From contig JAMPXO010000001.1 in NCBI GenBank assembly GCA_023701125.1, forward strand, positions 1-64,000: a stretch of 64,000 nucleotides of DNA, given 5' to 3'. The stretch is from Vicinamibacteria bacterium (GTDB lineage: Bacteria; Acidobacteriota; Vicinamibacteria; Fen-336). Every line of letters starts with the position of its first letter. Within the stretch, counting starts at the first letter, position 1. The position numbers were made by a program, and so were the translations under genes. Below are positions 39,342 through 44,643 of this stretch, piece by piece. The notes under the pieces were generated by a model. That model saw only the letters and a program-made list of their open reading frames with translations. It did not search any database and was not told the origin of the DNA.

Positions 39342-39983
39342 TCAGAAGTCCTGCAGGAACGGGTTGCGGCGGCGCTCGCGGCCGATCGTCGTCTCCGGCC
39401 CGTGGCCGGTGATGACCCGCGTGCGGTCGTCGAGGGTGAGCAGGCGGTCGCGGATCGACGCCAGCTCCTGATCGAAGTCGCCGCCGGGCAGGTCGGTGCG
39501 GCCGACGCTGCCGGCGAACAGGGTGTCGCCCGCGATCAGCAGCGGCTCGGCGCCCGCGAAGTGGAAGCACAGGCTGCCCGGCGTGTGACCGGGCGTGTGC
39601 AGCGTCTCGGCCGCGACGGCGCCGGCCTTGACGACGTCGCCGTGCTCGAGGTGCTCGTCGACGGTCGCCCGCTCGGGCGCCGCCAGCATGCCGCCCAGCC
39701 ACGACGCCTGCACGTCGAGCATCTCGTAGAGCGGGACGTCGCCGCGGTGCAGCATCAGCTTGGCACCGGTCGCGTCCTTCAGCGCCACGATGCCGCCGAC
39801 GTGGTCGATGTGGGTGTGGGTGATCAGGATCGCCGTGCAGCGCAGGCCGTGGCGGCGCAGCACCGCCTGCACCCGCGCGGGCTCGTCGCCGGGGTCGATC
39901 ACCAGCGCCTCGCCGGAAGCGGGGTCCGCGATCACGGCGCAGTTGCACTGCAGCAGCCCGACGGGAAAGGTCTCGACCAGCAT
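39342..39983 (-). CDS. Metallo-beta-lactamase-fold hydrolase, glyoxalase II-like
   Basis: A 213-residue binuclear metallohydrolase. It has the THTHIDHVGG metal motif at about 56-65 (H-x-H-x-D-H), HTPGHTPGSLCF (next His ligand), AGDTLFAGSVGRTDLPGG (bridging Asp) and VITGHGPETT (last His). The pattern is that of the glyoxalase II-like subgroup (YcbL/GloB2 type). It lacks the C-terminal substrate domain of classical glyoxalase II. It is probably a cytoplasmic thioester hydrolase. It begins 13 bases after the PAP2 gene stop. Confidence 0.9.
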   Translation of the reverse strand: MLVETFPVGLLQCNCAVIADPASGEALVIDPGDEPARVQAVLRRHGLRCTAILITHTHIDHVGGIVALKDATGAKLMLHRGDVPLYEMLDVQASWLGGMLAAPERATVDEHLEHGDVVKAGAVAAETLHTPGHTPGSLCFHFAGAEPLLIAGDTLFAGSVGRTDLPGGDFDQELASIRDRLLTLDDRTRVITGHGPETTIGRERRRNPFLQDF

Positions 39984-39992
39984 CGAGATCGA

Positions 39993-39998
39993 ATCCTA
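39993..39998 (-). promoter_or_regulatory. Putative internal -10 for the metallo-hydrolase gene
   Basis: TAGGAT on the minus strand, overlapping the PAP2 stop codon, predicts a start at 39986, three bases before the ATG at 39983. Confidence 0.35.
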
Positions 39999-40835
39999 CG
40001 CGAGTCGGAGTCTGCGCAGCGCGAGCAGCGTGAGCGCCCCCGCCAGCAACCCGGCCAGCGCGTCGACGAGGTAGTGGAAACCGCCGTAGACGGTGCCGAA
40101 CGTCAGCAGCGTCGAGAGCACGCCGAGCCCGACGCCGAGCGGGCGCGACTCGCGGAAGGCGGCGACGCTCGCGACCAGCGACGCGGCGACGTGCGACGAG
40201 GGGAACGCGGTGCCCCACGCCGAGCCGCCCTCCAGCAGGCGATGGGTCAGTTGCGCGAGTGCCGTCTCGGCCGCGGGCCCCGACACCGGCGGCAGCACGT
40301 AGCGTGGGCCGGCGACGGGCAGCAGCAGGAAGACGACGTAGCAGGCGTAGAACGCCGCCATCACCGCGGTTACCACGCGGCGCGCGCCGGCGCGGTTGCC
40401 CTGCGCCCAGGGCCCCAGCGGCGCCGCGGCCAGAATCAGGTAGTAGGAGAGATAGCCGCCGTGGAGCAGCGTCGACAGCCACGGCCACGGCGCCGCCGCC
40501 ATCCAGGTGCGCGAGGGCTGGCCGCCGAACAACGCCGCCTCCCACGCCTGTGCCTCGAGGTCGAACGACAGGCCATGGACGCGGTTGAGCGCGCCGACCT
40601 GCTGATAGAGGGCGAACAGCGCCAGCAGCGGGTAGAAGTCACCGCAGAACGCAGCCGCACCGCCGCGCCTCCGCAGCCACGGCGCGAGGCCGGCGACCGC
40701 GGCCAGCGCCAGCGCCGCCAGCAGTTGCAGCGCCGCGTCCGCACCGGTCACGCCCTTCCACGGCAGGGCGCCGGCGACGAACAGCGCGTAGGCGATGCTC
40801 AGCCGGTCGAGGGGCGCGAGGCCGTTCACAACCAT
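39996..40835 (-). CDS. PAP2-superfamily membrane protein, AUR1/inositolphosphotransferase-like
   Basis: A 279-residue integral membrane protein with six or seven helices. Phosphatase motifs are placed late, as in the PAP2_3/AUR1-like subgroup: VAGPRYVLPP, TAFPSSHVAASLVAS (PSxH core) and VYGGFHYLVDALAGLLAG (G-x3-Y-x2-D). AUR1-type enzymes move a phospho-head group onto ceramide or diacylglycerol, while others are lipid phosphatases. The ATG (40835) overlaps the upstream SDR stop by ten bases; a GTG two codons later is an alternative start. Its coupling to the SDR and GNAT genes is the basis for the sphingolipid hypothesis. Confidence 0.82.
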   Translation of the reverse strand: MVVNGLAPLDRLSIAYALFVAGALPWKGVTGADAALQLLAALALAAVAGLAPWLRRRGGAAAFCGDFYPLLALFALYQQVGALNRVHGLSFDLEAQAWEAALFGGQPSRTWMAAAPWPWLSTLLHGGYLSYYLILAAAPLGPWAQGNRAGARRVVTAVMAAFYACYVVFLLLPVAGPRYVLPPVSGPAAETALAQLTHRLLEGGSAWGTAFPSSHVAASLVASVAAFRESRPLGVGLGVLSTLLTFGTVYGGFHYLVDALAGLLAGALTLLALRRLRLA

Positions 40836-41794
40836 CCGGCCTCCCGATAGGCGGCGGCCGTCTGCTGCAGACCCGCCTCGAGCGAGGTCGCCGCCCGCCA
40901 GCCCGCATCGCGGGCGAGCGCTTCCGACGAGCAGGTCCACGCCGGCGCCAGCAGCTCGGGCGCCTTCTCCGGCGACAGCACGCTCGGCAGGCCGGTCAGT
41001 CGCGACCAGGCCCCCGCGACCGCGAGCACGCCGCGCACGACGGGCGCCGGCAGCGGCAGCAGCCGCGGCTCGCGACCCACGGCGCGACCGATCGCGGCGA
41101 TCAGCTCGCGCTGGCGGACGACCTCGGGCCCGGCCGCGTGGTAGGTGCCGCCGAGCGCCGCCGTCGCGACGGCCGCGCGCAGCAGCGCCTCGGCGAGATC
41201 CGGCGCGTAGACGAGCGAGAGCTGCTGTGAGCCGTCGCCGAGCAGCGGCGCCAGGCCCGTGCGGGCGAGCCGGAACAGGCGCAGGAACTCGCGGTCGCCC
41301 GGACCGTACACGGCGGGCGGGCGCACGATCACGAACGGGACCCCGGACTCGCGCACCGCGTCTTCGCCGGCTCGCTTGCTCTCGCCGTAGGGCGTGACCG
41401 GGCGCGGCGGACCGCTCTCGCCGATCGACTCGCCCGGCCGCGACGGACCGGTCACCGCCAGCGACGAGACGTGGACGAGGCGCCCGACCTGCGCCAGCGC
41501 CGCGGCGCGGGCGACGGCCGCCGCGCCATCGGCATTGACCGCGAAGAACTCCGCGCGCGAGGGCGCGGCCACGGCGCCGGCGACGTGGAACACGACGTCG
41601 GCGCCTGCGACCAGCCGGCGCAGCGCGTCCGCATCCGCGAGCGCGCCTGCGACCAGCGTGCAGCCGAGCCCCGACAGGGCCGCGCCGCGGGCCGGATCTC
41701 GCACCAGTGCCGCCACCGCGTGCCCGTCGCGGCGCAGCGCCCGAGCGAGGTGGTGGCCGACGAAGCCGCTGCCGCCCGTCAGCGCGACTCTCAC
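40826..41794 (-). CDS. Extended SDR, NAD-dependent epimerase/dehydratase family
   Basis: A 322-residue NAD(P)-dependent enzyme. The Rossmann start is VALTGGSGFVGHHLARAL (3-20) and the active site VSSLAVTG with YGESKRAGED (Tyr-x3-Lys). VRPPAVYGPGDREF follows the catalytic motif. The C-terminus PEKAPELLAPAWTCSSEALA, DAGWRAATSLEAGL, ending GWL is the type seen in dihydroflavonol-reductase/3-beta-HSD-like SDRs and in bacterial ceramide reductase candidates. The GTG start overlaps the GNAT gene stop (GTGA), so the two proteins are made together. The substrate is not determined; ketone reduction on a lipid is the favoured idea. Confidence 0.82.
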   Translation of the reverse strand: MRVALTGGSGFVGHHLARALRRDGHAVAALVRDPARGAALSGLGCTLVAGALADADALRRLVAGADVVFHVAGAVAAPSRAEFFAVNADGAAAVARAAALAQVGRLVHVSSLAVTGPSRPGESIGESGPPRPVTPYGESKRAGEDAVRESGVPFVIVRPPAVYGPGDREFLRLFRLARTGLAPLLGDGSQQLSLVYAPDLAEALLRAAVATAALGGTYHAAGPEVVRQRELIAAIGRAVGREPRLLPLPAPVVRGVLAVAGAWSRLTGLPSVLSPEKAPELLAPAWTCSSEALARDAGWRAATSLEAGLQQTAAAYREAGWL

Positions 41795-42918
41795 CCGCGG
41801 CCGATCGCCTTCTCGTACACGCGGTAGGTCTTGTACGGCTCGAAGCCCATCCGCACCAGCGCGTTGCGCATCAGGGGGTTGTCCTCGAGCACCCAGCCGG
41901 CCTCCGCCCAGCGCACGCCGCGGGCGCGGCCGTTCTCCCAGATCCGCGCGTAGAGCAGCGCGTCGAGGCCGCGGCGGTGCCACTCGGGCAGGGCGCCGAG
42001 GATGATCACCCGCACGCGGTCGATGCGGCGCGCCGCCCACAACACCTTGAGGATGCCGGGGAACAGCCGGCCCGACGGGTTCTTGCGCAGCGCCACGTTG
42101 AGGTCGGGCAGCGCGACCGCGACACCGACCGTCTGGCCGTCGACCTCCGCGAACAGCGCGAGGGCCGGGTCGACCACGGGCAGCAGCTGCTTCGCGAGGT
42201 GCTCCATCTCGCGGTCCGTGAACGGCACGAAGCCCCAGTTGTGCTCCCAGGCCGCGTTGTAGACCTGCTTGACGCGCGCCAGCTCGGCCGCGATCCGCTT
42301 CTTGTCGAGCGAGCGCACGCGCACGCCGTAGCGCTCCTGGACCCGGCGCGCGCCGGCGATCAGCCGCTCCGGCACGCCGTGCTCCCAGGTCTGATAGGCG
42401 TACAGGTCGCGAGCCCGGGCCAGGCCGTGGGCTTCGAGCAGGCCGGCGTAGCGCGGCGGGTTGTGCGGCATCATCAACGCGGCCGGGGTCTCGAAGCCCT
42501 CGACCAGCAGGCCCGCCTCGTCGTTCATCGACGGGCTGACCGGGCCGCGCATCGCGTCGCAGCCGCGGTCGCGCAGCCAGCCCTCGGCAGCCTGCAGCAG
42601 CGCCGCAGCGGCCTCGGCGTCGTCCTCGCACTCGAAGAAGCCGAAGAAGCCGACGCGGTCGGCGTGGACCTCGTTGTGGCGGCGGTTGACGATGGCGCCG
42701 ACGCGGCCGACCACGCGCCGCCCGCGGCGGGCCAGGAACAGCTCCAGGTCCGCGTGCTCGTAGAACGGGTTGCGTCGCGGGTCGACCAGGTCGCGCGCGT
42801 CGCGGCGCAGCATCGGCGCCCAGCCCGGGTCGCCGTCGTACAGGCGATACGGCAGCGCCACGAACTCCCGGCGCTCCGCCGGGCGGCGGACCGAGCCGAC
42901 GAGGAGTGCCTGGCTCAG
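41791..42918 (-). CDS. GNAT-fold acyltransferase-like protein (bacterial ceramide-synthase-like candidate)
   Basis: A protein of about 375 residues with the two-part GNAT-like family pattern FVALPYRLYDGDPGWAPMLR at the N-terminus, FLARRGRRVVGRVGAIVNRR, DAMRGPVSPSMNDEAGLLVE in the middle, and a second GNAT half ending AGWVLEDNPLMRNALVRMGF. Such proteins are often labelled N-acetyltransferase; related GNAT-fold proteins act as ceramide synthase in Caulobacter-type bacteria (known family), which here is inference. No ATG, GTG or TTG lies in frame near the expected N-terminus. A CTG at 42918 that overlaps the upstream stop (CTGA) fits best. GTG 42861 would remove the conserved FxALP motif. Confidence 0.72.
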   Translation of the reverse strand: MSQALLVGSVRRPAERREFVALPYRLYDGDPGWAPMLRRDARDLVDPRRNPFYEHADLELFLARRGRRVVGRVGAIVNRRHNEVHADRVGFFGFFECEDDAEAAAALLQAAEGWLRDRGCDAMRGPVSPSMNDEAGLLVEGFETPAALMMPHNPPRYAGLLEAHGLARARDLYAYQTWEHGVPERLIAGARRVQERYGVRVRSLDKKRIAAELARVKQVYNAAWEHNWGFVPFTDREMEHLAKQLLPVVDPALALFAEVDGQTVGVAVALPDLNVALRKNPSGRLFPGILKVLWAARRIDRVRVIILGALPEWHRRGLDALLYARIWENGRARGVRWAEAGWVLEDNPLMRNALVRMGFEPYKTYRVYEKAIGRG

Positions 42919-43658
42919 AGCCGGCCGAGCACGGCCAGCGCCGACAGCCGCAGGTAGGCGAGCGACGTGCGCACCGTGCGCATCTTGCTCTTGCCGGCGC
43001 GGCGCGTGCCGTCGAGGCGCATCGGCACCTCGGAGATGCGCAGGCCGAGGCGCGCCGCGCGGTACAGGATCTCGACCATGCACTCGAAGCCTTCGGAGCG
43101 CAGGATGCCGGCGCCGTAGCGCCGCTCCAGCGCGCGCAGGGCGCTGACCCGGTACACGCGGTAGAACGACGACAGCGTGGCCAGCCCGGACAGGCCGAGC
43201 GTCTTCTTCATCAGGCCGTTGGCGAGGTGCGACAGGCCGACCCGGTGCCACGCGGTGCCGGCGATGCCGCCGCCGTAGAGGTAGCACGAGGCGAGCACGA
43301 CGTCGTCGCCGTCGGCCCACGCCCGCTCCAGCATTCGCGCCAGCACGGCCGGGTCGCTGGTGCGGTCGCCCTCCAGCGTCGCCACCAGGTCGGTCGCCGC
43401 CGCGGTCTTCAGCACGTGCAGGAAGCCGGTGCGGAACGCGGCGCCGGGGCCGAGGTTGCGGCCGTGGCGCAGCACCTCGACCGGCGAGTCGGGCCGCGAC
43501 GCGGCCAGCGCCTTCTCCGGCCCCGCGTCGGTGGAGCCGTCGTCGACGATCACGATGCGGTGGGCGGCGGCCGAGGGCAGCAGGCGCTCGCGGATCCCCT
43601 CGAGCAACCCGTCGACGTTGGGCTCCTCGTTCAGGATCGGGACGACGACGTGGATCAC
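42915..43658 (-). CDS. Glycosyltransferase family 2, dolichyl-phosphate mannose synthase-like
   Basis: A 247-residue GT-A enzyme. It has VVVPILNEEPNVDGLLEGIR (4-23), IVIVDDGSTDAGPEKAL (35-51, nucleotide-binding DD) and the metal-site TLEGDRTSDP, followed by MLERAWADGDDVVLASCYLY and FECMVEILYRAARLGLRISE, then VPMRLDGTRRAGKSKM, all typical of DPM1-like transferases. There is no membrane anchor. It would transfer a sugar from a nucleotide donor to polyprenyl phosphate, making the lipid-linked donor that GT-C proteins such as the one at 44664-46619 use. The GTG start is four bases after the epimerase stop. Confidence 0.9.
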   Translation of the reverse strand: MIHVVVPILNEEPNVDGLLEGIRERLLPSAAAHRIVIVDDGSTDAGPEKALAASRPDSPVEVLRHGRNLGPGAAFRTGFLHVLKTAAATDLVATLEGDRTSDPAVLARMLERAWADGDDVVLASCYLYGGGIAGTAWHRVGLSHLANGLMKKTLGLSGLATLSSFYRVYRVSALRALERRYGAGILRSEGFECMVEILYRAARLGLRISEVPMRLDGTRRAGKSKMRTVRTSLAYLRLSALAVLGRL

Positions 43659-43662
43659 GGGG

Positions 43663-44643
43663 TCAGGGCAGCGTGCCGGCCCGGCGCATCGCTTCGCGCT
43701 GCCACTCGATCGTGCGCGGCAGGCCCTCCTCGAGCGGCACCGCCGGCCGGAAACCGAGCACCTGCTCGCACAGCGTCTGCTCGGGGATGCGGCGCTGCAC
43801 GTCTTCGTAGCGGCCGAACGTGGCGAGCGGCACCAGCCTGACCCGCGGCTCGTCGTCGCGGACCAGCCGCCACACGAGGCGGGCCAGGTCGAGGATCGTG
43901 ATCTCGCGGGAATTGCCGAGGTTCAGCATGCGGCCGTCCGCGTCCTTCGTGTCGACGGCGCGGACGAAGCCCTCGACCATGTCGTCGACGTAGGTGAAGC
44001 TGCGGGTCTGGGCGCCGGTGCCGTGGACCTCCAGCTCCTCGCCGCGCAGCGCCTGGCCGATGAACACCGACTGCGGGCCGCCCCACCAGGTCACGTTCTG
44101 GCGCGGCCCGTAACCGCCGAACAGGCGCAACGCCACGCCCTCCAGGCCGTGCCGCTCGCGGAACGCGAACAGCGCCTGCTCCTCGAACATCTTGGAGATC
44201 GCGTAGCTCCAGCGTCGGACGTGCGGCGAGCCGATCACCGACACGCTCTCCTCGGAGAACGGCACGTCCGGGTTGCGGCCGTAGCAGTCGGAGGTGGAGG
44301 CCAGCACCACCCGCCGCACGCCGTTGCGGACCGCCGCCCGCAGCACCTCCAGCCCGCCTTCGCCGTTGGTGACCAGGGTGTCGAGCGCGTCGCCGTAGCG
44401 CGGGATCTTGCCCGCGGCGAGGTGGATCACGACCTCCGCGCCCGCGAACGCCGTGTCGAGGTCGGCCGGCACCAGGATGTTGCCCTCGACGAAACGGTGG
44501 CGCGCCAGGTCCAGGCCCTCGAGGTTGTCGAGGCTGCCGTGGGAGAGGTCGTCGAGCAGGGCGAGTTCGTCGCCGCGCGCGGCGAGCCGGCGCACGAGGT
44601 TGGAGCCGACGAAGCCGGCCGCGCCGGTGATCGCGATCTTCAT
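43663..44643 (-). CDS. NAD-dependent nucleotide-sugar epimerase/dehydratase (SDR)
   Basis: A 326-residue extended SDR. It has GAAGFVGSNLVRRL (7-20), HLAAGKIPRYGDALDT, a catalytic STSDCYGRNPDVPFSEE block and YAISKMFEEQALFAFRERHG, where the Tyr-x3-Lys is YAISK. VALRLFGGYGPRQN follows, with YVDDMVEGFVRAVD near the end. It resembles UDP-glucose 4-epimerase and decarboxylase-type enzymes, but the substrate cannot be fixed. It probably supplies the sugar for the next GT2 gene. A -10 hexamer TAGAAT lies just ahead of its ATG, so it can also be transcribed by itself. Confidence 0.88.
   Translation of the reverse strand: MKIAITGAAGFVGSNLVRRLAARGDELALLDDLSHGSLDNLEGLDLARHRFVEGNILVPADLDTAFAGAEVVIHLAAGKIPRYGDALDTLVTNGEGGLEVLRAAVRNGVRRVVLASTSDCYGRNPDVPFSEESVSVIGSPHVRRWSYAISKMFEEQALFAFRERHGLEGVALRLFGGYGPRQNVTWWGGPQSVFIGQALRGEELEVHGTGAQTRSFTYVDDMVEGFVRAVDTKDADGRMLNLGNSREITILDLARLVWRLVRDDEPRVRLVPLATFGRYEDVQRRIPEQTLCEQVLGFRPAVPLEEGLPRTIEWQREAMRRAGTLP

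Follow-up and report, generated by a model that had tools for sequence, protein, structure and literature searches.

Known systems for ceramide synthesis

In Caulobacter, an N-acyltransferase, bCerS (CC_1154/CCNA_01212), and a dehydrogenase, CerR (CC_1164/CCNA_01222), are needed for dihydroceramide (PMC11324152, PMC11087976). The cerS gene, CC_1154, belongs to the region CC_1152-1165, where it adjoins lptF2/lptG2 (PMC11324152), and CerR is periplasmic (PMC11087976). In Bacteroides, inositol phosphoceramide is made with the AUR1-like BT1522, the PIP synthase BT1523, and BT1526, a myo-inositol-phosphate synthase (MIPS) (PMC9246714, PMC8791184). When sphingolipid producers are surveyed, genomes are usually tallied by the presence of spt, the gene for serine palmitoyltransferase (Spt) (e.g., PMC11334938).

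The locus and its genes

The window considered here is the whole 64,000-nucleotide stretch that was analysed (G000:C200:1-64000), from a 5.4-Mb draft genome that is 95.2% complete. The initial annotation had drawn attention to SDR, GNAT, and PAP2 genes in one run, and these are indeed all on the minus strand, with a 4-bp overlap between SDR and GNAT and a 10-bp overlap between SDR and PAP2. The span assigned to the run, 40826-43658, contains the first two genes, but it leaves out PAP2 and takes in a GT2 gene that lies outside the conserved module. The features are as follows.

39342..39983, minus strand: MBL-fold hydrolase, a neighbour of PAP2 that is conserved in the genus only
39996..40835, minus strand: PAP2, a membrane PAP2_3 protein, AUR1-like, predicted to be a ceramide phospho-headgroup transferase
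40826..41794, minus strand: SDR, an extended SDR assigned to the CerR family, with the glycine motif TGGSGFVG and YGESK
41791..42918, minus strand: GNAT, an N-acyltransferase with a predicted tandem GNAT fold, assigned to the bCerS family, with homologs in spt clusters
42915..43658, minus strand: GT2, DPM1-like, directly upstream of GNAT, where relatives carry spt
43663..44643, minus strand: NAD-dependent epimerase/dehydratase, upstream of GT2 (Pfam Epimerase, 154 bits)

The codon at the GNAT start (42918) is CTG and overlaps the GT2 stop as CTGA; the next usual start codon is a GTG at 42861. Read from 42918, the protein aligns with a sister-genome copy that begins at a GTG, and the CTG is therefore probably the true start.

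The Pfam matches are weak for GNAT and strong for the other two. GNAT scores 21.8 bits with Pfam GNAT, barely above the cut-off; SDR scores 131 bits with Epimerase, and PAP2 scores 59 bits with PAP2_3 (PF14378; E=5.8e-16). None of the three proteins reaches the cut-off of an NCBIfam family, GNAT and PAP2 matching no GNAT or PAP2 family in that collection, and the best scores for SDR are OleD (112 bits of 580 needed) and HpnA (109 of 368). A phmmer search of the PDB with GNAT gave nothing useful; its predicted structure is a tandem GNAT fold, with a best PDB match of E 6.4e-14, and both this fold and the size (~370 aa) are those expected of bCerS. Likewise, SDR has the glycine motif, the YxxxK motif, and the adjacent putative bCerS gene expected of CerR, and it is closer to the SDRs of spt operons than to the named families.

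Related operons that carry spt

When a genome collection was scanned with the GNAT alignment, 80 named loci were obtained, with an alpha-oxoamine synthase (AOS) gene nearby in 56 and both AOS and SDR genes in 51. The 16 best named relatives (L105-L120), of which 15 are titled Gemmatimonadetes or Gemmatimonadales (Gemmatimonadota) and one Bacterium HR33, all have Spt, GNAT, and SDR in one order and on one strand; PAP2 then comes as the fourth gene in every one of the 14 with a contig that reaches so far, the other two contigs ending first. The window SDR is the best reference for the SDR of all 16 operons (45-56% identity, versus 27% to the neighbouring epimerase), the window-type PAP2 is the best reference for the operon PAP2s (41-51% identity), and the gene overlaps are similar to those in the window. 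In a GNAT tree, a quick one with no bootstrap, the window copies fall inside the L105-L120 group (99% SH-aLRT), a position that suggests horizontal sharing. Beside two of these operons (L107:13113-19938, L113:12983-19833) is a convergent cluster of genes that by eye look like a CDP-alcohol transferase, a nucleotidyltransferase, a Gfo/Idh protein, and an aminotransferase; it resembles L041/L042 and may possibly hold headgroup genes.

Three genomes of another family in the same class (G028, G051, G056) have GNAT at 44-49% identity, beside or near SDR, with an AOS of the Spt clade a few genes away, as well as an acyl-AMP ligase and, in G056, ACP (both by eye). When plasmids were searched by tblastn, GNAT was found with an Spt-type gene in Sphingomonas parapaucimobilis, Roseomonas, E. 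coli (YghO), Streptomyces, Aureispira, and Rubrobacter, in the order AOS-GNAT-SDR in Streptomyces and Rubrobacter. The window GNAT is 35% identical, over 94%, to the GNAT near Spt of S. parapaucimobilis, whose Spt is, in the tree, near-identical to the solved S. paucimobilis SPT, and 38-42% identical to the GNATs of Roseomonas, Rubrobacter, and Streptomyces. In Roseomonas, GNAT is beside LptF/LptG, a nucleotidyltransferase, a CDP-alcohol transferase, a lipid kinase, Spt, and ACP. The E. coli yghO product is a bCerS-family GNAT, and its cluster (L047:5844-13623, NZ_MG591698.1) holds a fatty acyl-AMP ligase, a CerR-like SDR, ACP, an Spt-type AOS, and LptF/LptG genes.

Given the homology, the synteny with spt in relatives, and the phylogeny, GNAT and SDR are very probably members of the bCerS and CerR families, and the ceramide synthase and reductase kinds first proposed for them hold up. 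Taken together, these comparisons show that the window genes make up the bCerS-CerR-AUR1-like portion of a Gemmatimonadota-type spt-bCerS-cerR-PAP2 operon, without spt in this genus.

Conservation and boundaries of the module

The window genus is represented by two further genomes (the sister genomes G001 and G002, 85 and 92% complete), and in these GNAT, SDR, PAP2, MBL, and M28 are in the same order as in the window. A divergent RNA-binding-protein gene sits upstream of GNAT, and GT2, the epimerase, and a large membrane protein are all absent from between these two genes. Because both sisters lack GT2 and the epimerase at this place and have kept GNAT-SDR-PAP2, the former lie outside the module, and a link between them and it was rejected; by synteny, the conserved module is GNAT-SDR-PAP2. 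Furthermore, no GT2 ortholog was found in either sister genome at E<=1e-25, and thus the glycosylated product that had been envisaged for this run is not borne out. The MBL gene adjoins PAP2 in both sisters, but it does not follow PAP2 in the family relative G004 or in the Gemmatimonadota operons, and the hydrolase is probably outside the pathway. Since the order GNAT-SDR-PAP2 recurs in the sisters and, behind spt, in the 16 best named relatives, the run is beyond chance.

Purifying selection acts on each of the three genes. Between the window and its congeners, dN/dS is 0.26 for GNAT, 0.28-0.32 for SDR, and 0.28-0.31 for PAP2, and between the two congeners it is 0.09-0.14 across the three genes; over the genus as a whole, the range is 0.09-0.26 for GNAT and 0.14-0.32 for SDR. 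Residues that are invariant in the canonical operon are retained in all three proteins. PAP2 orthologs (at least 50%) are present in six of 14 family genomes, and the same six hold GNAT, in one case as a remnant; the other eight have neither. The chance of this co-occurrence is 1 in 3003 if the genomes are independent, which they are not, since three are from one genus. SDR is present in five of the six, the sixth genome being 68% complete, and adjoins PAP2 in G006 and G004. In G004 (G004:C14; L187:6283-6516), GNAT is cut to an in-frame remnant of 77 codons beside intact syntenic SDR and PAP2, either by a real deletion or by an assembly error.

The PAP2 protein and the headgroup

The suggestion that PAP2 is AUR1-like is sustained by its predicted fold, though at weak E values. 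The model is all-helical (pLDDT 87), and Foldseek places the AUR1-Kei1 complex first, AUR1 with ceramide second, SMSr third, and PAP2 phosphatases after these; the likeness to AUR1 is moderate, with a TM of ~0.5 (0.55) and E values of 0.02 and up. AUR1 and SMSr are ceramide-binding enzymes of the PAP2 superfamily. The motifs FPSSH and HYxxD are invariant across 11 sequences, and the protein thus combines a membrane fold with the His/His/Asp motifs of the AUR1 type. By sequence profile, the similarity to AUR1 is weak (E 0.077, with LpxE at E 0.028).

Instead of transferring a headgroup, PAP2 might be a lipid phosphatase, with a phosphorylated lipid, for example, as its substrate. LpxE and PgpB are indeed among its sequence and fold matches. 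However, the two best fold matches are to AUR1 and the third is to SMSr, the phosphatase motif KxxxxxxRP is absent on reading of the PAP2 sequence, and the operon is without a kinase gene; a phosphatase is therefore considered a serious but minority possibility.

As to the group that a transferase would move, the window genome encodes MIPS and a PIP-synthase-like CDP-alcohol transferase. Because this set is used with the AUR1-like BT1522 in Bacteroides, phosphoinositol is the likeliest guess for the headgroup. MIPS is, however, present class-wide and consequently lends no specific support, so that inositol is a guess, and a doubtful one.

An absent spt and a divergent synthase

Spt had been noted as missing from the window, and the absence extends further: no Spt-clade enzyme was found in the window genome (95% complete) or in its two congeners (85 and 92%), and spt is not adjacent to GNAT in any of the three. 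Absence from all three drafts by chance has a probability of ~6e-4 if they are independent. The initial annotation had named two findings that would together count against ceramide synthesis, namely, no spt anywhere in the genome and hits to unrelated SDR and GNAT families; the first is close to what is seen, and the second is not.

The window genome has two alpha-oxoamine synthases, a KBL on contig C158 and a divergent enzyme on contig C235 (the C235 AOS). In a careful AOS tree of 67 sequences, every GNAT-linked AOS groups with the two solved SPTs in a single clade; the C235-type AOS form a separate clade, sister to that of Spt, and the two clades together are split from KBL/BioF with 100/96 support. 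The best PDB match of the C235 AOS is an SPT (1.9e-88), although it is below the NCBIfam SPT cut-offs, with 363 of 640 bits (NF047600), 335 of 500 (NF047599), and 272 of 670 (NF047603). It retains the PLP lysine, the His/Asp/His residues, and the C-terminal arginine, and it differs from Spt by R142P, G274F, A332C, and W399A (alignment numbering). R142 and G274 are invariant in Spt and common to KBL and BioF. An identity as BioF was rejected, the score being 354 of 426 bits and the position outside the BioF branch. C235-type AOS, at 70-94% identity, are present in 14 of the 17 order genomes examined, with or without GNAT; because they are conserved also where GNAT, SDR, and PAP2 are missing, the C235 AOS would have another primary role.

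The divergent AOS is the first gene of an order-wide lipid cluster (L035:4421-9806, G000:C235) that also encodes an ADC-like decarboxylase, a YegS-type lipid kinase, a PlsC-type acyltransferase, a 311-aa protein, and the PIP-synthase-like CDP-alcohol transferase, and a similar cluster occurs in another family (L091). The window genome also has a GNAT paralog (28% identity) on contig C166 (L036:8976-15418, G000:C166), a distant member of the bCerS family. Its neighbours are a PEP-synthase-like protein, UbiA, a membrane protein, DUF3419 (BtaA-like), and an MMPL-like transporter, with a similar set in G013 (L188). This paralog was rejected as the real bCerS, given its very long branch and its UbiA, DUF3419, and transporter neighbours. 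In the family relative G006 (G006:C166; L086:5669-7885), an Spt-clade AOS, the only one seen in the family, is fused to an N-terminal region of ~360 aa that by eye looks acyltransferase-like and is cut by the contig end.

A proposed pathway and its alternatives

These results have led to a model that we regard as the best explanation of the whole and as somewhat favoured overall, in which a bCerS-CerR-AUR1-like module operates without spt. In this model, a long-chain base, or its 3-keto form, would most likely be supplied in trans by the C235 AOS; as judged from their families, GNAT would N-acylate this base, SDR would reduce the 3-keto group, and PAP2 would transfer a phospho-headgroup to the ceramide-like lipid. 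The product would be a long-chain base that has been reduced and N-acylated and that carries a phospho-headgroup, possibly inositol. Several observations count against such a pathway: the C235 AOS is outside the Spt clade, differs from Spt at the four residues given above, and is conserved also in genomes that lack the module; MIPS is class-wide; the likeness of PAP2 to AUR1 is weak by sequence and moderate by fold; and in G004 nothing more than a GNAT remnant accompanies SDR and PAP2. A broader and more tentative proposal is that ceramide-like lipids can be made without an Spt-clade enzyme; the order-wide C235-type AOS would then be long-chain-base synthases of a new class, supplying a bCerS-CerR-PAP2 module that was either acquired or retained in the absence of spt.

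Among the alternatives that concern the substrate, the strongest, though we think it rather unlikely, is that the operon has been repurposed, so that GNAT N-acylates some other amino-lipid, such as a non-serine product of the C235 synthase, and the lipid is ceramide-like rather than strictly a sphingolipid. The alteration of the C235 AOS at residues that are invariant in Spt and common to KBL/BioF would fit this idea, as would its place in a cluster with ADC-like, YegS-type kinase, PlsC, and PIP-synthase-like genes, and Spt-like enzymes that act on other amino acids have been hypothesised (PMC11334938). The canonical invariant residues of GNAT, SDR, and PAP2 speak against it. A further idea, which we consider improbable, is that long-chain bases are scavenged from other organisms and that the three genes form a salvage route. 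Purifying selection on downstream genes in a genus where no Spt-clade enzyme was found in three genomes would be accommodated in this way, but no linked uptake system is present, and scavenged sphinganine needs no 3-keto reductase, yet SDR is kept. That a normal spt is present but has been lost from the assemblies is less probable still: the genomes are drafts and the Spt-clade AOS of G006 lies at a contig end, but three separate misses would be needed, and the gene beside GNAT in both sisters is not spt. Finally, the idea that unrelated GNAT, SDR, and PAP2 proteins serve polyprenyl-phosphate glycolipid synthesis with GT2 and the epimerase, which are directly upstream on the same strand, is scarcely credible, being largely refuted by synteny, given the sister loci and the recurrence of the operon elsewhere with spt.

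Here an acylase, a reductase, and a probable headgroup enzyme are kept under selection, and no Spt-clade gene was found; thus, either spt-based surveys may miss producers or another enzyme may perform the entry step. In addition, the linked PAP2 is a candidate for the headgroup enzyme in sphingolipid operons of the Gemmatimonadota type, and the literature that we searched, with partial coverage, gave no description of the PAP2 in those operons.

Comparison with known systems

The likeness of the PAP2 protein to yeast AUR1, the IPC synthase (9ivc, 9vj4), is in the top fold matches and the His/His/Asp motifs, and at 18% identity, a TM of ~0.5, and an E of ~0.02 it is a likeness at the level of the fold only. 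By description, the window genome resembles Bacteroides thetaiotaomicron BT1522-1526 in having an AUR1-like enzyme together with PIP-synthase-like and MIPS genes; unlike in Bacteroides, these are scattered on separate contigs, and a PIP phosphatase was not identified among them. With Caulobacter crescentus, the window shares the same kinds of protein, a comparison made by description and through the synteny of Roseomonas, whose GNAT locus has the architecture of CC_1152-1165 and so provides a bridge to the window GNAT. In contrast to Caulobacter, the window is without linked spt, ACP, acyl-ACP synthetase, and LptF/LptG, and PAP2 replaces the Cpg headgroup genes. The Gemmatimonadota operon (L105-L120) differs in having spt, where the window genus has either GT2 (the window) or a divergent RNA-binding-protein gene (the sisters) upstream; nevertheless, it is this operon that the window resembles in gene order, in overlaps, and in having the nearest GNAT, SDR, and PAP2 sequences.
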